From positions 1 through 21,983 of IMG/VR virus record IMGVR_UViG_3300033150_001069: 21,983 bases of DNA. One strand, given 5' to 3'. The notes beneath the pieces are model-generated. The model did not search any database and was not told where the DNA came from. It saw only the letters and a program-made list of their open reading frames with translations. Both the position numbers and the translations under genes were made by a program. The stretch comes from a virus. This document shows, in pieces, positions 6,591-21,892 of this stretch. The stretch's first letter is position 1. The number at the start of each line of letters is the position of its first letter.

Positions 6591-7195
6591 GCTTCGCCTC
6601 CCTTCTCGCGCGAAACCTTATCCACGTAGGCGCAGCAATGGTGCGGCGCGCCCTCGAAGGCATGCGCCTCGCCCCAGTGCGCCAGGAACTCGCACAGCTC
6701 GTCGTCGCTGCGCCACCCCGTGGCGTGGCGATCATCCCGCTGCGCCGCCTCGCTCGGCATTCCACGGGGCACGGTCACAATCACGCGCCGCCTCGCAATC
6801 GCGGCCAGCAGGTCCATCAGCTCGGCGGGACGGGCGTAGTGCTCCAGGAGCTGGCCGGCGAACACCGTGTCGAACGCGCCCCGCATAGCCGGGCCGATCA
6901 CGGCGATGTCGCCGCAGAGCCAGAGCCGCCCCGGGCGGTCCTTCCGCGCCCGCGCGATGGCGATTTCGGATACGTCTACCCCGACGTAGATGGGCACGCG
7001 CGGCAGGTAGTCGGCCAGGGCTCCGAACGCACACCCCACGTCGAGCACCGAGCCGGTGCAGAGGGCCGCCACGGCGCGGTATTCGTCCGGGTGATCCCTT
7101 AGGTCGCCACGGTCGAGGTATCGGCGCACCTTGCTTTCCCACCAGCGCCGATCATCCTCTGAAAGGCGCAACGGACTTGTTCGGGTATCGGCCAT
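6587..7195 (-). CDS. Class I SAM-dependent methyltransferase, accessory
   Basis: The 202-residue protein starts at ATG 7195 (MADTRTSPLR). It has methyltransferase motif I at residues 49-58 (SVLDVGCAFGAL-type), an acidic end of strand two in VGVDVSEIA (71-79), GDIAV at 95-99, and a motif-IV-like FDTVFAGQLLEHY (108-120). This is the small-molecule / glycan type rather than a DNA methyltransferase, because no NPPY or SPPY motif is present. It overlaps the end of the glycosyltransferase gene by 97 bases, and a methyltransferase coupled to a glycosyltransferase suggests methylation of the sugar product or of the modified protein. That link is inference. The ribosome site is weak (AAAGAAAG), so translation may depend on the upstream gene. 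Confidence 0.8.
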   Translation of the reverse strand: MADTRTSPLRLSEDDRRWWESKVRRYLDRGDLRDHPDEYRAVAALCTGSVLDVGCAFGALADYLPRVPIYVGVDVSEIAIARARKDRPGRLWLCGDIAVIGPAMRGAFDTVFAGQLLEHYARPAELMDLLAAIARRRVIVTVPRGMPSEAAQRDDRHATGWRSDDELCEFLAHWGEAHAFEGAPHHCCAYVDKVSREKGGEA

Positions 7196-9165
7196 GTTAC
7201 TTTCTTTACCAGTCCATCGGCGCACTCGCCCACCTGCCCCGGCTGCCACCTGTGCCATGCCTCGCGGCGGTGCCGGGGCGAGCCGTCGCGCCGCTCGTAG
7301 AACGTATGCTTCTGCTCCATCAGATCGCGCGGAAGCGCGTGCCCCAGGTGGTAGATTACGCACTCGGGCACCTGCTCGGCGGCCTCGCGCGAGGTGTCGA
7401 GGTCGTACAATCGGTTCCCGCTGGCGTCCACCGGCGTCGGGTGCCGCAGGAACCGATAGCTGCCCCGCCAGACGCTCCAGCGGTAGTGGGGGCAGACCGA
7501 ACCGAAAGGCTCCAGGGGATAGCCCCATCGCCGCCCGGAGTTGAGCTCCGGCGTGTCCACGATCCAGTGGTCGAGGTCGTGCCAGAGCGTCACCCAGCGG
7601 GGGGAGCCGAAGGGCGGGTCGGCTTCGAGCCAGCGGTCCAGGCCGACCCAAATCTCGTCCGCGTCGAGGAGCAGTTGGCGGTTCCCGCGCACGTGCGCCG
7701 CCACCCAAGAGCGCATCTCCAGCTTGTCGGCCCACACGGGCCGGGCCTCGATGGTGATCTTGCCGTCCGGGTCGTCCATCGCCCGGAGCTGCTCCAGGAC
7801 GCCACGCTCAGGGTAGTCTTTCCAGAGCGTCGTCGGGCCGTAGGCGATGATGATCTCGTCCACGTGTGGATATACCGCCTGCACGGCGTCCACGGCGGTC
7901 GGGGTGGCATAGCAGATCATGTGCGCAGACACGGCGGGGCGGCGCGTAACGTGGTAGGGCACGCCCTCCAGCCGCCGCGCCATAGCGTCGAGCCCGTAGG
8001 TCCGCACCGCCCAGGCCCGGTCCCGGTCGGGGACTCGGCGAGGCTTCGCCGCCAGGTCGGCGACGGCGCGCGCGAAGGCCCGCTCGTCGCCGTTCGGGAC
8101 GTAGACCAGGCGGTCGCCGTAGGCGTCGCGCAGCACGGGCAGGTCGTAGACGATACAGGGGGTGCCCACCGCCAGGGCCTCCATCGGCACCATGCCGAAG
8201 CCCTCAAAGCGGCTGGGGGCGAGCACCGCCACGGCGTCGCGCAGGACGCGGAACTTCTCCTCGTCCGGGACCTGGCCGGCGTTGACCAGCTCGTGGCCCT
8301 TCGCCGGCGTCCCGCGTATCTGTTGGCCGACGTTCACCAGGTCCAGGGGGGCGTCTACCTCGCAGACGGCGCGCCAGGCCGTGTCGGCACCCTTATAGTC
8401 TGACGACCGCCCGACGCGCGCCATGTAGGGCTTGCCGCGCCGCCTCGGGTCCTGCGGGGCTCGGAGCGCCCTTTCCAGGGCGTCCGTATTGATGGCCGGC
8501 GGGAGCCACGTGCCGGGAGCGTCCGGCATGTCCACCCAGCGGCGCAGGTATTCCAGGCTCAGGGGGCTGTTGGCGATGAAGAACTGCGCCCGCTTCACCA
8601 CGTCCGGGGGGTTCGCCGCTTCGAGTCGCCGCGCGTAGTCGGGAGCATACTGCTGGACCCAGTTCGGGGTCTCGAAGTTCCAGGCCACCAGCGGACGCCC
8701 CATCTGCTCGGCGTAGCGCAGAGCCTCCCGCCCCAGGTCGCCCTTGCTGTCGGTGACCACCACGTCTATGTCGGCGGGAACGCGCGCCCGCGCAGTCAAC
8801 ACGCGCAGGCGGTCGTGCGGGCGGTAGTCGTCGGCCCACGCGGGGGCGCGGTCTGTGAAGATGAACACCTCCGCACCGTTGCGGGCCAGGCAGAGGGCGT
8901 ATTGCCAGACGTGCAGGCGACCGCCGCTGTAATGGGGGCTCGTGTGCATCCAGATGCCGATGCGAGGTCGGGTCGAACGGGCCGGCGCGTTCGGCAGCCG
9001 CCCGTCGGCGGGGCGGGGTTCACGCTTCGGGCCGATGTAGCCGCGCACCAGCAGGCGGGCCGCCTCGTGCCGGTTCACGATGTCCACGAGCTGGCCGGCG
9101 CGGATACGCAAGTCGCGGCCCCTCGCGTCCTTGCACGCGAAATCCTGCAACGCCCGGAACCACAT
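7099..9165 (-). CDS. Two-domain glycosyltransferase (GT4-like plus GT-A-like) with an N-terminal phage neck-type domain
   Basis: This 688-residue protein has three parts. Residues 1-46 (RALQDFACKDARGRDLRIRAGQ and following) resemble the short RALRDF-type domains often encoded between capsid and connector genes. Residues about 66-400 form a GT-B, GT4-like transferase: a Gly-rich YSGGRLHVW near 79-87, GRSSDYKG at 252-259, and the E-x7-E motif at Glu321 and Glu329 in EGFGMVPMEA. Residues about 412-620 look like a GT-A transferase with the metal-binding DADE at 501-504. The start is ATG 9165, with a weak site. The gene follows the major capsid gene and a strong inverted repeat, and overlaps a methyltransferase. 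The likely role is transfer of sugars to virion protein or host surface glycan; donor and acceptor are unknown. Confidence 0.85.
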   Translation of the reverse strand: MWFRALQDFACKDARGRDLRIRAGQLVDIVNRHEAARLLVRGYIGPKREPRPADGRLPNAPARSTRPRIGIWMHTSPHYSGGRLHVWQYALCLARNGAEVFIFTDRAPAWADDYRPHDRLRVLTARARVPADIDVVVTDSKGDLGREALRYAEQMGRPLVAWNFETPNWVQQYAPDYARRLEAANPPDVVKRAQFFIANSPLSLEYLRRWVDMPDAPGTWLPPAINTDALERALRAPQDPRRRGKPYMARVGRSSDYKGADTAWRAVCEVDAPLDLVNVGQQIRGTPAKGHELVNAGQVPDEEKFRVLRDAVAVLAPSRFEGFGMVPMEALAVGTPCIVYDLPVLRDAYGDRLVYVPNGDERAFARAVADLAAKPRRVPDRDRAWAVRTYGLDAMARRLEGVPYHVTRRPAVSAHMICYATPTAVDAVQAVYPHVDEIIIAYGPTTLWKDYPERGVLEQLRAMDDPDGKITIEARPVWADKLEMRSWVAAHVRGNRQLLLDADEIWVGLDRWLEADPPFGSPRWVTLWHDLDHWIVDTPELNSGRRWGYPLEPFGSVCPHYRWSVWRGSYRFLRHPTPVDASGNRLYDLDTSREAAEQVPECVIYHLGHALPRDLMEQKHTFYERRDGSPRHRREAWHRWQPGQVGECADGLVKKVTWPIPEQVRCAFQRMIGAGGKARCADTSTVAT

Positions 9166-17248: not shown

Positions 17249-17581
17249 TTACTCCCCCGGAAAGGTCCGCTCGACGTGCTCGGCGGTGATCACGCGCCAG
17301 CCCCAGCCGTGCAGGTAGTCGAGGAACTTGTCGCCGTCCACGACCTCCGGGTCGGCGCACAGGTCCACGTAGACGCCCCGCTCTCCCGGGCGCAGAAGCA
17401 GGACCGCGTGTCCCTCCACCATCAGCACGGCGAGGCTGTAGCCCCCCGTCGCCAAGCGGTGCTCGACGTAGGTGAGCGTGCGCCCGCCGGCGTGCCAGCA
17501 GGCGTTGACGAGAAACGACCTTAGCTCGACGTCGGCGGTCTTTCGCGGCGTGTCGAGCACGGCCAGCGTATGACGCATCAT
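17249..17581 (-). CDS. SpeD-like (S-adenosylmethionine decarboxylase-like) small protein lacking the catalytic serine
   Basis: The 110-residue protein resembles bacterial SpeD/SpeH over most of its length. It has a short first strand (MRHTLAVLD), a helix, then GYSLAVLMVEGHAVLLLRPG and GVYVDLCADPE, a helix (DKFLDYLHGWG), and a final strand ending RVITAEHVER. Against the SES-H-x6-P-x7-D-L block of true enzymes, Glu56, His58, Pro65, Asp73 and Leu74 align without gaps. The Ser that becomes the pyruvoyl group is Gly57, and the catalytic His and Cys positions are Leu62 and Asp77. If homologous, it cannot form the pyruvoyl cofactor. It starts at ATG 17581, overlapping the methyltransferase stop, with GGAGG upstream. 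The family call is from pattern memory; other small alpha/beta folds are possible. Confidence 0.5.
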   Translation of the reverse strand: MMRHTLAVLDTPRKTADVELRSFLVNACWHAGGRTLTYVEHRLATGGYSLAVLMVEGHAVLLLRPGERGVYVDLCADPEVVDGDKFLDYLHGWGWRVITAEHVERTFPGE

Positions 17582-18498
17582 TGCGGCAACCTCCCCACGA
17601 GTAGATATTCGTGAACGCGCGGCAGAATCCGGTGCTTATTCTGCGGGACGCTGAACAGGGTGTTCGTTCCTCCGAGAAGCGTGTCGGGGAGAATGGCGAC
17701 GTCCCAGGGGTCGAACCCGGCGTCGGCCATCGTGCGGAGAATGTCGGCGTGGAAGGGATAGAACCGCCCCTTGTAGCGGAAGTCCCCGACGTTGACGACG
17801 AGCCACGCGCGGGGCGCGGCCTGCGCGCGCATAGCCCGCCACACCTGGGCCATCGACGCGAGAAACTCCTGGTAGGTCAGCCGGGTGAGCTGGCGCGGGT
17901 CGTCGTCGTATTTCTCGACGCACCAGTAGGGGGGCGAGGTGAAACAGAACTGCCAGCCCCGCACCTCGCGCCCTATGGTGCGCGCGTCCTGGTCCCGCAC
18001 CTCCAGGCGCAGCTCCGTGGGCTGGAGCCGCCCGATGACGGCCCGGCAGAAGCGGAGATAATCCTGGCAGACGTCGTAGCCGACATAGTGGAGCCCCAGC
18101 GCATGGGCGACCTGGAGCCGGACGCCGTGGCCGGCGAACGGGTCGCAATAGAGCTGCCCGGGCTCGGCGTAGTATTTGACGGCGAACTCGACGAGCACGG
18201 AGGGCATCACGGAGGCCGCCTTTCCAGGCTTCGCGCCGCGCGATTGCACATGCCCGACGGTGCTTTTCCAGGACGGGTCGGCGGCGGCGTATCGCTGGAG
18301 CGACGGCGAGGAGCCCAGGGCGTAGCGGGCGAGGCCCGTCTCGTCCTGATACTGGAGCACCGTCATGCCGTCCTTGCGGTGGAGCTTGAGTATGCTGCGG
18401 GGGATACAGCGGAAGCGCCGGCGCATACGTCGGCGGTCCCGCCGGCTCCGCGCGAGGGGGCCGGTGACGACTTCGCCCAGCTTCAGCGCCTTAGCCAT
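17578..18498 (-). CDS. DNA methyltransferase (SPPY type, N4-cytosine or N6-adenine)
   Basis: The 306-residue enzyme starts at ATG 18498 (MAKALKLGEV), with AGGAGAG upstream; the in-frame extension to 18549 has no good site. It carries SAM-binding motif I as DPFAGHG at 119-125, a YVGYDVCQ strand at 138-145, and the catalytic motif IV TSPPYW at 187-192. Further conserved blocks are LVVNVGDFRYKGRFYP (233-248) and a C-terminal HEYLLVGR. Motif I precedes motif IV. The sequence alone does not tell whether adenine N6 or cytosine N4 is the target. The basic N-terminus (residues 18-32, eleven Arg) may bind DNA. It overlaps the ParB-like gene by 8 bases. Likely role: protection from host restriction or marking of the phage genome. 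Confidence 0.88.
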   Translation of the reverse strand: MAKALKLGEVVTGPLARSRRDRRRMRRRFRCIPRSILKLHRKDGMTVLQYQDETGLARYALGSSPSLQRYAAADPSWKSTVGHVQSRGAKPGKAASVMPSVLVEFAVKYYAEPGQLYCDPFAGHGVRLQVAHALGLHYVGYDVCQDYLRFCRAVIGRLQPTELRLEVRDQDARTIGREVRGWQFCFTSPPYWCVEKYDDDPRQLTRLTYQEFLASMAQVWRAMRAQAAPRAWLVVNVGDFRYKGRFYPFHADILRTMADAGFDPWDVAILPDTLLGGTNTLFSVPQNKHRILPRVHEYLLVGRLPQ

Positions 18499-19210
18499 CG
18501 TTGCTCTCCTCGCCCTCGCCGTCCTCGTCGCCCAGGACGTCGGCCACAAACGCGGCCAGCTTGTCGGCGAGCAGGTCTCCGGGCCGGGCCAGGATCGCCT
18601 CGCGGAGGCGGTCGGCGTCGTCGGGGTCGACCCACCCCTTGAGGGCGTAGCCGCACTCGAAGGGGACCAGGGTATCGGCCAGGGTCGACGGCTCGTTCTC
18701 GCCGTCGCCCTCAGTCCAGGGGGAGCCGCCCTCCCCCTCGCCGCCGGGAGTCTCGGGGCCGTAGGCGAACACGAACTCTGTTAGGTCGATTTCGGGGAAG
18801 TTGAAGTCCTCCAGCTCGTCGAAGCCGATGCCAGACTCGACGACGAACTCGTAGAGCCCGTCCTCCGTGACCTCGCCGAACTGCGACGTCAGGGCCAGCA
18901 CCTTCCGTTTCGCCTCGGCTATGTCCTTGGCCTCGACTACGGAGACGGGCACGGGCGGCACCTCGTAGCCGTCCTTGGCCATCTCCTGGAGCACCCGAAC
19001 CCGCTGGTGGCCGTTGAGCACATAGCACTTCCCCTCGTGCTCCCATACCGCCACGGGCTCGGAGAAGCCGAGCCGGAGAATCTGCTTGCGGAGCCGCTCG
19101 AAGTTTGCCCTCGACAGGCTTTTCAGGGAGCCCTGAAACGGCTCCAGCTTCTCCAGGGGCCTCGTGTCGGCCCCATCGCACGCCATCTTCACCCGCCGTC
19201 GCTTCGCCAT
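18491..19210 (-). CDS. ParB/Sulfiredoxin-fold nuclease-domain protein
   Basis: This 239-residue protein has a ParB N-domain: a lead-in at about 18-57 (RPLEKLEPFQGSLKSLSR, ILRLGFSEPVAVWEHEGK) and the phosphate-binding motif VLNGHQRVRVLQEM at 64-77. The following EVPPVPVSVVEAKDIAEAKR block is typical of phage ParB-like proteins. The last 70 residues are acidic and low in complexity. No clear helix-turn-helix follows, so it is not a plasmid-partition ParB. Such domains commonly neighbour DNA methyltransferases in phages and may act as nucleases or nucleotide-dependent DNA-binding proteins. It is the first gene of the operon: ATG 19210, with GAGAGG seven bases upstream. Function beyond fold is unknown. 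Confidence 0.85.
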   Translation of the reverse strand: MAKRRRVKMACDGADTRPLEKLEPFQGSLKSLSRANFERLRKQILRLGFSEPVAVWEHEGKCYVLNGHQRVRVLQEMAKDGYEVPPVPVSVVEAKDIAEAKRKVLALTSQFGEVTEDGLYEFVVESGIGFDELEDFNFPEIDLTEFVFAYGPETPGGEGEGGSPWTEGDGENEPSTLADTLVPFECGYALKGWVDPDDADRLREAILARPGDLLADKLAAFVADVLGDEDGEGEESNDG

Positions 19211-19390: not shown

Positions 19391-19420
19391 ATGCTACTCC
19401 GGCCCCCCGCGCCTTGTCAA
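19391..19420 (-). promoter_or_regulatory. Candidate promoter for the structural operon
   Basis: Read on the minus strand, a perfect -35 TTGACA (19420-19415) is followed after 18 bases by TAGCAT (19396-19391), a four-of-six match to the -10 consensus. Transcription would begin near 19384, leaving a leader of about 174 bases before the ParB-like ATG at 19210. A run of nine G on this strand lies immediately upstream of the -35. It assumes a sigma70-like host factor. Confidence 0.5.
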
Positions 19421-19567: not shown

Positions 19568-19600
19568 GTAGTTGTTACTCTACGTAGAGTCTATAACTAC
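19568..19600. promoter_or_regulatory. Palindrome, candidate operator
   Basis: A perfect 14-base palindrome ACTCTACGTAGAGT (19577-19590) is flanked by a second pair of inverted arms, GTAGTT (19568-19573) and AACTAC (19595-19600). The spacers between the pairs are three and four bases. The nested symmetry in an AT-richer patch between divergent operons fits a dimeric or tetrameric repressor site. No repressor gene is in the window. Confidence 0.5.
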
Positions 19601-19658: not shown

Positions 19659-19687
19659 TGGACACCCGCCCCTGTATCCGGTATCAT
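19659..19687 (+). promoter_or_regulatory. Candidate promoter for the plus-strand small-gene operon
   Basis: TGGACA (19659-19664, five of six against TTGACA) is followed after exactly 17 bases by TATCAT (19682-19687, five of six against TATAAT). The start of transcription would be near 19694. That is about 24 bases before the ATG at 19718 and 93 before the ATG at 19787. The -10 is part of a perfect palindrome TATCATGATA (19682-19691), so a repressor could compete with RNA polymerase here. Confidence 0.6.
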
Positions 19688-19691: not shown

Positions 19692-19786
19692 ACCCGAATC
19701 GAGGAGAGGAGAGAGCGATGAGGGACGCGAGGGAAAGCCGGAAGCCGGAAAGGGACGAAAGACTCCAGACGAGGGAGGAGAAGGTT

Positions 19787-20146
19787 ATGAACGTTAGTGA
19801 GCAGTTCGTCGGCTGGGCGCGCGGGCGCGACGGCGGCAGCGTCAGCCTGGAAGTGTTCGACGCCGAAGGGGTCTTCACCGGGCGCGTCGTCGTTCTGACC
19901 TGCGGGCAGTCCTACGACCTGTTGCCCGGCGAAACGCTGGTCCGCGCGGACATCATCACCGGCGACCAGTTCTTTACGGGCGGGACGGTTCGCCTGGTCC
20001 AGCGAGGGGGCGAGCTGATCTTGCGGCACGAGCAACCCGGCGGGGCCGAGGTCGACGACGACCTGACGGCCGACCCGGAAGACGCGCGCGCCGACGAGAT
20101 CATCGAGCGGGCCGCGCGGGATACTCAGGACGGGGAGGACGACTAA
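19787..20146 (+). CDS. First gene of the small-gene operon, unknown function
   Basis: The 119-residue acidic protein begins MNVSEQFVGWARGRDGG and has alternating strands (GSVSLEVFDAEGVFTGRVVV, GETLVRADIITGDQFFTGG, GTVRLVQRGGELIL), suggesting a small beta barrel. An acidic tail ends DTQDGEDD. The start at 19787 has GGAGG eight bases upstream. An in-frame ATG at 19718 also has a strong site and lies closer to the proposed promoter. It would add 23 charged residues (MRDARESRKPERDERLQTRE at the start) with rare AGG/AGA codons, so I prefer 19787 but cannot exclude it. The stop overlaps the next start as TAATG. Confidence 0.7.
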   Translation: MNVSEQFVGWARGRDGGSVSLEVFDAEGVFTGRVVVLTCGQSYDLLPGETLVRADIITGDQFFTGGTVRLVQRGGELILRHEQPGGAEVDDDLTADPEDARADEIIERAARDTQDGEDD

Positions 20147-20148
20147 TG
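20132..20148 (+). promoter_or_regulatory. Repeated gene-junction ribosome site, copy 1
   Basis: GGGGAGGACGACTAATG carries the ribosome binding site, the stop of the upstream gene and the start of the next in 17 bases. In the upstream frame it encodes G-E-D-D-stop. Nearly identical junctions occur at 20410-20426, 20907-20923 and 21671-21685. Confidence 0.8.
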
Positions 20149-20424
20149 AGCGACGAGCGGATTACGACCCTGGCGGCCCGGAGCGCCCAAATCGCCGCGC
20201 AGCGGGACCATTTCTCCCTCACCCGGGTCACGCCCCAGGGCCAGGACTACTTTTACCTGCGTTACCGCCTCGGGCGCAACCCCACACGCCTGGAGGCCAA
20301 ACGGTTCGTGGACGCCTACGTCGACCATTTCGTCGGCTACCTGGCCGCACACCTGCGCAGGGCCGTAATGGACGACATGAAGCGCCGGTCTTTCATCGAC
20401 TCAAGCGATGGGGAGGACGAGTAA
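20146..20424 (+). CDS. Small operon protein 2, unknown function
   Basis: The 92-residue protein begins MSDERITTLAARSAQIAAQR (helical), followed by a strand-rich segment with aromatic residues (HFSLTRVTPQGQDYFYLRYR). A helix (PTRLEAKRFVDAYVDHFVGY) and a basic helix then run to the acidic end SSDGEDE. It has no Cys, signal or membrane segment. The strand-strand-helix order with alternating hydrophobics suggests a small alpha/beta domain. The start overlaps the upstream stop (TAATG), and the stop overlaps the next start in the same way. No family is recognised. Confidence 0.75.
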   Translation: MSDERITTLAARSAQIAAQRDHFSLTRVTPQGQDYFYLRYRLGRNPTRLEAKRFVDAYVDHFVGYLAAHLRRAVMDDMKRRSFIDSSDGEDE

Positions 20425-20426
20425 TG
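20410..20426 (+). promoter_or_regulatory. Repeated gene-junction ribosome site, copy 2
   Basis: GGGGAGGACGAGTAATG differs from copy 1 by a single base (C to G before TAATG), changing the last acidic residue from Asp to Glu. It again combines stop and start as TAATG. Confidence 0.8.
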
Positions 20427-20921
20427 CGCCCCTACGCACCCAAAGACGAGCTGATCTTCGCAGGCACGGCGGCGACGGACGGGCGCTGCGAGAGGTGCCT
20501 GGGCCTCATCCGCGCAGGCGAGGCCCACTACCTGGACCCCGACCATGCCCGATACCCCTACGCCCAGCGCACCCCGGCCTGGGTGTGCACCCGCTGCGCC
20601 GACTCGCCGGACGGGTATTGCAGCGAGAAGGACTTCGAGGAGGAGGGCGAAAGGATGCATGCATACGAGGTGGAGTACTGTAAAGGACGGGCCGGGTTTG
20701 AGCGGACGCTCGCTCGCGAAGTCGTCTTCGCCGCCTCAGCCGAAGAGGCGCTGGCGCTCTGCATGCATGGCGAGGATTGGCCGGTGCAGGTTCGCGACCG
20801 GCACTTCGCCGCTGCGTGCAATCCGAAATACGCATCAAGCGATGACTACTCGGAGTGTTATATCGCGGAGCGGCTCAGCACGGACGATTACCAAGACCTT
20901 GACGACAAGGAGGACGACTAA
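20424..20921 (+). CDS. Zinc-finger-like two-domain protein, possibly with an internal start
   Basis: This 165-residue protein has an N-terminal zinc-binding pattern, Cys22-x2-Cys25 and Cys55-x2-Cys58, with His35 and His41 between them; it looks like a small treble-clef finger. A short acidic linker (DFEEEGER) leads to Met78, which has a strong ribosome site of its own. The C-terminal domain (MHAYEVEYCKGRAGFERT, then REVVFAASAEEALALCM) is alpha/beta, with an acidic end (DLDDKEDD). The internal ATG at 20655 would give an 88-residue protein. The gene may be a fusion of two ancestral small genes. Function unknown; nucleic-acid binding is possible for the finger. Confidence 0.75.
   Translation: MRPYAPKDELIFAGTAATDGRCERCLGLIRAGEAHYLDPDHARYPYAQRTPAWVCTRCADSPDGYCSEKDFEEEGERMHAYEVEYCKGRAGFERTLAREVVFAASAEEALALCMHGEDWPVQVRDRHFAAACNPKYASSDDYSECYIAERLSTDDYQDLDDKEDD
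20637..20657 (+). promoter_or_regulatory. Internal ribosome site and in-frame ATG in the zinc-finger-like gene
   Basis: GAGGAGGAGGGCGAAAGG directly precedes an in-frame ATG at 20655. The same motif, GAGGAGGAGCGAAAG then ATG, forms the genuine start site at 21201-21218 in this operon; the internal copy has only two extra G. Independent initiation of the C-terminal domain is therefore plausible. Confidence 0.5.
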
Positions 20922-20923
20922 TG
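20907..20923 (+). promoter_or_regulatory. Repeated gene-junction ribosome site, copy 3
   Basis: AAGGAGGACGACTAATG matches copy 1 except for the first two bases. It encodes K-E-D-D-stop and starts the next gene on ATGAACAC, the same first codons used after copy 4. Confidence 0.8.
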
Positions 20924-21229
20924 AACACGCGGAAACGATTGCCGCTGCGGCTGACGCGCCGGCAGCGGGCGGTCGTCAAGCGGGCGCTGGCGGCCATGGC
21001 GGCCTTCCCGCACGAGCAGAGCGACCGGGCCTACACGCCCGACGCCCTGCCCGTGATCAGCGCCGGCGTCCTGTTCGCCGTCCCGACCGCCGCCGGCTTC
21101 GCCGCCCTTCACGAGCTGGCGTGTCGCCTGGAGGCGCGAACCCACGACCCGGCGGCCCGCAGCGTTGCGCGCCGCATTCGTGCCGTCTACCAGATTCCGG
21201 GAGGAGGAGCGAAAGATGGGAGCGCTTGA
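20921..21229 (+). CDS. Small basic operon protein, unknown function
   Basis: The 102-residue protein has a basic N-terminus (MNTRKRLPLRLTRRQRAVVK), a helix, then a hydrophobic middle (LPVISAGVLFAVPTAAGFAA) too short and broken for a confident membrane segment, and a C-terminal helix (LACRLEARTHDPAARSVARR). The basic start suggests nucleic-acid binding, which is only inference. The last 14 bases overlap the next gene; the codons for GGGAKDGSA at the end carry that gene's ribosome site. The start overlaps the upstream stop as TAATG. Confidence 0.7.
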   Translation: MNTRKRLPLRLTRRQRAVVKRALAAMAAFPHEQSDRAYTPDALPVISAGVLFAVPTAAGFAALHELACRLEARTHDPAARSVARRIRAVYQIPGGGAKDGSA

Positions 21230-21686
21230 CGACGTAATGGCGGCCCTTACCAGGGTCGGGGACCAGATGCAGCGTATCATCCTCGCCGAAGGCGAGATCC
21301 GGGCCGCGCAGCAGCGCCACCCGGAAGCTGCCAACCGTATCAACCGCGCATTCATGCTGTGCGCCAAGGGCTCCGTGGCGCTTCGCGCGCCGGAGCGGGC
21401 GTTCCTGCTCCACGTGCGCGAGCTGCTCGACCGGGTGGCCGCGCGCGAGGACACGCGCCCCGCAACGGACGGCGAGCTGATTGCCGTATTCTCGATGGCC
21501 TCGCAGGTCTGCCCGCTCCAGCTTGACGCGGCCTCGGCCTACGTGAAGCTGGGCCGGAAGCACGGGCTCCTGGAGGACGACGGTGTGGTGCTGCCGGAAT
21601 CGTATCCCGGCGCTATTGACGACACGATCGCACGGCTGCGCGCCCAATGGGCCGTTCCAGACCGCGTGCTGGAGGACGACGAATGA
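21216..21686 (+). CDS. Helical operon protein, unknown function
   Basis: The 156-residue protein starts at ATG 21216 (MGALDDVMAALTRVGDQMQR), with GGAGGAG upstream; the longer frame to 21165 is rejected because it overlaps the previous gene and lacks a site. It is mostly helical, with repeated amphipathic segments (IILAEGEIRAAQQRHPEAAN, RAFLLHVRELLDRVAARED, LDAASAYVKLGRKHGLLEDD). The C-terminus is acidic (RVLEDDE). It ends on an ATGA overlap with the next gene through the shared junction sequence. No motif is recognised. Confidence 0.75.
   Translation: MGALDDVMAALTRVGDQMQRIILAEGEIRAAQQRHPEAANRINRAFMLCAKGSVALRAPERAFLLHVRELLDRVAAREDTRPATDGELIAVFSMASQVCPLQLDAASAYVKLGRKHGLLEDDGVVLPESYPGAIDDTIARLRAQWAVPDRVLEDDE
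21671..21685 (+). promoter_or_regulatory. Repeated gene-junction ribosome site, copy 4
   Basis: GGAGGACGACGAATG matches the other copies except that TAATG is GAATG. The upstream frame therefore runs two bases further and stops at TGA inside ATGA. The start of the following gene (ATGAACAC) equals that after copy 3. Confidence 0.75.
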
Positions 21687-21892
21687 ACACCCGCCCCATA
21701 GAGGAACGCCTCGACGACCTGGCGATGGACGCCCTGGCGACAGACTACGCCCTGGGCAACCTGGTGGAGCGTGTGGAGGAACTGGCGCGGGCCGTGCACG
21801 CCCTGCGCAGGCGCGTGGAGAGCCTGGAGCGGGGCATCGCCCGCGCCTCGATTGACCTTTCGGACCTGCGGCGGGGAGGAGGCACACGATGA
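21683..21892 (+). CDS. Small coiled-coil protein
   Basis: The 69-residue protein starts at ATG 21683 (MNTRPIEERLDDLAMDALAT), with the shared GGAGG junction upstream; the in-frame extension to 21647 is rejected. Heptad-spaced Leu, Val and Ile run from about residue 22 to 60 (LGNLVERVEELARAVHALRR, then VESLERGIARASIDLSDLRR), indicating a coiled coil and probable oligomerisation. The end is GGGTR, and the stop overlaps the next start as ATGA. The next gene has a similar helical character. Function unknown. Confidence 0.7.
   Translation: MNTRPIEERLDDLAMDALATDYALGNLVERVEELARAVHALRRRVESLERGIARASIDLSDLRRGGGTR

Follow-up and report, generated by a model that had tools for sequence, protein, structure and literature searches.

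Four near-identical gene joints in a small-gene operon of a GC-rich viral contig: probably ordinary translationally coupled joints

The window, which is the whole stretch of DNA analyzed here, is an IMG/VR viral contig of 21,983 bases that is possibly incomplete and has a GC content of 68%. Most of its genes are on the minus strand, including those for portal, terminase, a ParB-like protein, and a methyltransferase, and the translations suggest that the tape measure, capsid, protease, and small terminase genes are also on this strand. The plus strand carries a small-gene operon, the site of the repeated joints, which is presumably early judging from its orientation and gene type. This operon and the ParB-like gene are separated by a control region of ~500 bases, where promoter-like sites, identified by consensus match only, point both ways. 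Between positions 19200 and 21983, two promoter-like pairs were seen, compared to 0.2 expected in shuffled sequences, and they are on opposite strands, each directed toward its own operon. Between the divergent operons, the control region also contains a perfect 14-base palindrome (ACTCTACGTAGAGT, 19577-19590), which is a candidate operator. RNA families and tRNAs were looked for in the window and none were found.

The first six genes of the operon encode small proteins of 69 to 165 amino acids. No significant pair was found when genes 1 to 6 were compared with each other for paralogy, so that the sequence-only reading of this DNA, in which the genes looked unrelated, was borne out. In IMG/VR, searches with genes 1, 2, 3, and 5 and with the ParB-like gene turned up no relatives, genes 1 to 5 had no relative among GenBank phages (tblastn), and a local tblastn of genes 1 to 6 against every fetched locus yielded no early-gene relative. 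The N-terminal half of gene 3 (CERC...CTRC) resembles a small zinc-binding domain, its sole match being a sub-threshold hit to zf-A20.

Table 1. Genes, joints, and promoter-like pairs of the small-gene operon and its control region.
Feature	Position	Strand	Description	Relatives or basis
Promoter-like pair	19391-19420	-	faces away from the small-gene operon, toward the opposite operon	consensus match only
Candidate promoter-like pair	19659..19687	+	TGGACA-17-TATCAT, 5' of the small-gene operon	consensus scan, 10/12
Gene 1	19718..20146	+	142 aa (119 aa if from the ATG at 19787); C-terminus ...DGEDD	no relative found
Joint 1	20134..20148	+	GGAGGACGACTAATG; gene 1/gene 2; 1-base overlap; GGAGG-to-ATG spacing 7	
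Gene 2	20146..20424	+	92 aa; C-terminus ...DGEDE	no relative found
Joint 2	20412..20426	+	GGAGGACGAGTAATG; gene 2/gene 3; 1-base overlap; spacing 7	
Gene 3	20424..20921	+	165 aa; Cys-rich N-terminal half; C-terminus ...DKEDD	no relative found
Joint 3	20909..20923	+	GGAGGACGACTAATG preceded by AA (AAGGAGG); gene 3/gene 4; 1-base overlap; spacing 7	
Gene 4	20921..21229	+	102 aa; 14-base overlap with gene 5 via a different joint	
Gene 5	21216..21686	+	156 aa; C-terminus ...LEDDE	no relative found
Joint 4	21671..21685	+	GGAGGACGACGAATG(A); gene 5/gene 6; 4-base ATGA overlap; spacing 7; register as joints 1-3	
Gene 6	21683..21892	+	69 aa; coiled-coil-like; MNTR start as in gene 4, otherwise unrelated	

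Four joints of this operon have nearly the same 15 bases, reading GGGGAGGACGACTA and variants, and each lies on the plus strand where one open frame closes and the next one opens, as had been claimed. All four join same-strand genes through a start/stop overlap (TAATG in joints 1-3, ATGA in joint 4), with a Shine-Dalgarno (SD) GGAGG inside the upstream gene, seven bases before the next ATG. The shared GGAGGACGA starts at 20134, 20412, 20909, and 21671, and is always read in the upstream gene as GAG-GAC-GA(C/G). The earlier description of four nearly identical junctions linking consecutive genes holds for the shared register and, as to gene order, for joints 1-3. Joint 4 departs from it, since its overlap is of the ATGA type instead of TAATG and it comes two genes later, after the unrelated gene 4/gene 5 joint GGGAGGAGGAGCGAAAGATG. 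Joint 4 reads CTG GAG GAC GAC GAA TGA, in which the TAA of joints 1-3 is replaced by GAA and the upstream protein is one codon longer. The gene 6/gene 7 joint GGGGAGGAGGCACACGATGA also has a different sequence. Joints 3 and 4 had been noted to share the sequence that follows as well, and indeed they match at 22 of 24 bases, through ATGAACACsCGs and including ATGAACAC, where the likeness ends. Outside the joints, similarity between the flanks was at chance level. The accessibility of the four starts showed no clear difference from that of the late starts (mean unpaired 0.54-0.62 vs 0.52).

A TAA/ATG overlap of one base with GGAGG seven bases upstream forces the upstream frame to be xxG-GAG-Gxx-xxx-TAA, which encodes Glu followed by Val, Ala, Asp, Glu, or Gly. 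Because the upstream frame must read GAG-Gxx, the acidic protein ends are mainly, or in part at least, a by-product of the ribosome site, and most of the likeness among the joints likewise follows from the constraint of a strong ribosome site at a given spacing before TAATG. Among 1-base overlap joints from the fetched stretches, not counting the motif copies that had brought those stretches in, two acidic end residues were found at 10 of 90 joints with the SD core, compared to 1 of 197 without it. In the sequence-only reading, each joint had a double role, providing the next gene with its ribosome site and encoding an acidic tail, and the sequence together with the evidence for convergence suggests that this is the case.

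The identity may nevertheless go beyond what a ribosome site needs, with flanks at chance level yet spacer agreement above codon expectation. With up to two mismatches allowed, GGAGGACGANNAATG occurred five times in the window, four of them exact, against an expectation of 0.5. The early genes prefer the codons GAC and GAG, and under their codon usage ACGA is the likeliest four-base filler of the spacer (p = 0.03). The Monte Carlo probability that four of the six joints have the same four spacer bases was 5e-5 under early and 5e-6 under late codon usage, values that assume SD, spacing, and register at every joint and are not corrected for the selection of this finding out of a scan covering many windows. 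Codon usage alone thus falls short of explaining four matching fillers (about 5e-5), which counts against convergence.

Comparable joints were collected from neutral GC-rich IMG/VR stretches, terminase relatives, and three annotated phages, using a simple open-frame finder with 40 codons on each side and a GGAGG spacing of 5-9. A spacing of 7 was the commonest (42 joints), compared to 14-27 joints for each of the spacings 5, 6, 8, and 9. GGAGGACGA was present at only 1 of 125 comparable overlap joints elsewhere and at none of ~24 late-operon starts of the window, and both counts speak against convergence. Among 301 sequences, the window had the highest repetition (four of its ten SD joints, vs a maximum of two elsewhere), a ranking that is weak because only eight of the 301 had at least four such joints.

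At least 119 IMG/VR stretches contain GGAGGACGACTAATG as an exact 15-mer, with a GC content of 31-72% among the matches listed. In these listed matches, 108 of 121 copies lay between open frames, compared to 229 (11%) of the 2144 remaining TAATG sites in those stretches, and ~100 distinct proteins were found on either side of the motif. The joining of ~100 different upstream and downstream proteins indicates that the motif arises independently, and its recurrence at many joints that this is a solution reached repeatedly, rather than a lineage-specific device. The motif was nearly always present as a single copy per stretch among the matches listed. In another phage, represented by L044 (3227-3402) and L125, two successive identical GGAGGACGACTAATG joints are 161 bases apart.

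On their layout, we class the joints with translationally coupled overlapping gene pairs, which overlap by one base (-1, TAATG or TGATG) or four bases (-4, ATGA) and are translated by termination-reinitiation (PMC6728339, PMC10666635, PMC12548453). The likeness lies in the 1- or 4-base stop/start overlap, the SD inside the upstream coding sequence, and the same-strand operon; the difference is that here the 15 bases, spacer included, are almost identical at four joints of a single short operon. Among coupled spacings, -4 and -1 overlaps occur most often and are favoured (PMC12548453), and in four of five E. coli pairs reinitiation fell by 60-90% or was lost altogether once the intragenic SD had been removed (PMC6728339). 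With the GGAGG core lying within the final codons of the upstream gene, at a spacing of seven bases from the stop-overlapping ATG, a terminating ribosome would restart on the next gene or be recruited to it with the help of the SD, as we infer from this published work on overlapping pairs. We consider it likely that the four sites are ordinary translationally coupled joints that became nearly identical by convergence, a short operon with a preference for GAC and GAG codons having probably settled on one good solution, to which copying of one joint, notably of joint 3 to joint 4, may have contributed. Selection on coupled stoichiometry, which had been proposed as a reason for the joints, is possible.

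The copying of a joint could account for more than such a contribution, if one joint had been duplicated or exchanged, by micro-duplication or by recombination across the short identical stretch, with small genes thereby placed downstream of a ribosome site that already worked. The spacer identity above the codon-usage prediction, the 22 of 24 bases shared by joints 3 and 4 with ATGAACAC among them, and the pair of successive joints in the L044/L125 phage all fit this explanation. However, the identity enters neither flank, a length of 13-24 bases is little for homologous recombination to act on, the 15-mer occurs independently at ~100 gene pairs among the matches listed, and no gain or loss of genes between joints was seen in relatives, as the search found no relative with the operon; we therefore regard copying as an unlikely main cause. 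Joints 3 and 4 would be the best candidates for micro-duplication. A more elaborate form, in which the phage spreads one optimised joint of coding sequence and ribosome site by micro-duplication and new small genes plug in with translation pre-coupled, appears very unlikely. The idea of the sequence-only reading that a modular joint lets genes be gained or shuffled accordingly found no support: similarity is confined to the joint, the 15-mer recurs at the ~100 gene pairs in unrelated phages, and no relative with the early operon was found. We read the joints as locally convergent, possibly micro-duplicated, and repeated more often than expected, with no sign of a gene-shuffling device; the repeat is real and locally enriched, and its cause is mostly ordinary.

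Two further explanations place the cause in a wider signal or habit. The closest known case of over-conserved, ribosome-site-like repeats directly before the starts of unrelated genes is the Start-Associated Sequence (SAS) of cluster K mycobacteriophages and cluster EF Microbacterium phages (PMC3203893, PMC7302621), and the conserved bases beyond the SD core might similarly be the target of a phage or host factor controlling early-gene translation. The ACGA after GGAGG adds nothing to canonical anti-SD pairing, the motif is limited to the presumed early, non-structural operon, much as SAS is confined to the non-structural half in cluster K (PMC3203893), and a similar motif is present in the cluster EF phages (PMC7302621). 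But SAS is a 13-bp GGGATAGGAGCCC or GGGAAAGGACCCC that is present in 10-19 copies and frequently has an extended element upstream (PMC3203893, PMC7302621), whereas GGAGGACGA is unlike both published consensus sequences, lies within coding sequence, and has no extension. With only four copies, in a record of 21,983 bases that is possibly incomplete, the joints fall below the about 10-19 copies per genome of SAS. Moreover, two other joints of the same operon are without the motif, and the matches listed show it to be widespread among unrelated phages, with rarely more than one copy per stretch, which makes an SAS-like element highly improbable. The least credence is given to a host-wide or phage-wide habit of codon and SD usage, by which all genes of the host group would use the same joint. 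The richness of the early genes in GAC and GAG is in keeping with such a habit, but the joint is at none of the late-operon starts counted above, and among the TerL relatives in IMG/VR (L004-L014; L134-L180) the motif was at no joint and gave one non-junction match. Such a general bias had been named in advance as what would refute the modular-joint idea, and the data at hand, including the 1 of 125 comparable joints elsewhere, do not favour it.

If the four sites are ordinary coupled joints, a strong ribosome site within the end of a gene dictates an acidic protein tail, and unrelated phage genes then come to resemble each other at their joints. Caution is therefore needed, as such likeness need not mean shared ancestry or a recombination site. 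Were a joint copied instead, phages would have a way of acquiring small genes whose translation is provided for from the outset.

Two features of the minus strand were also observed. A long glycosyltransferase-like frame (7099-9165) is located in the late operon, downstream of the capsid gene. The ParB-like and DNA methyltransferase genes, which are adjacent (17578-19210), each correspond to one half of a single PHROG family (phrog_498), as would be expected after the splitting of a fused protein or a fusion of the two elsewhere.
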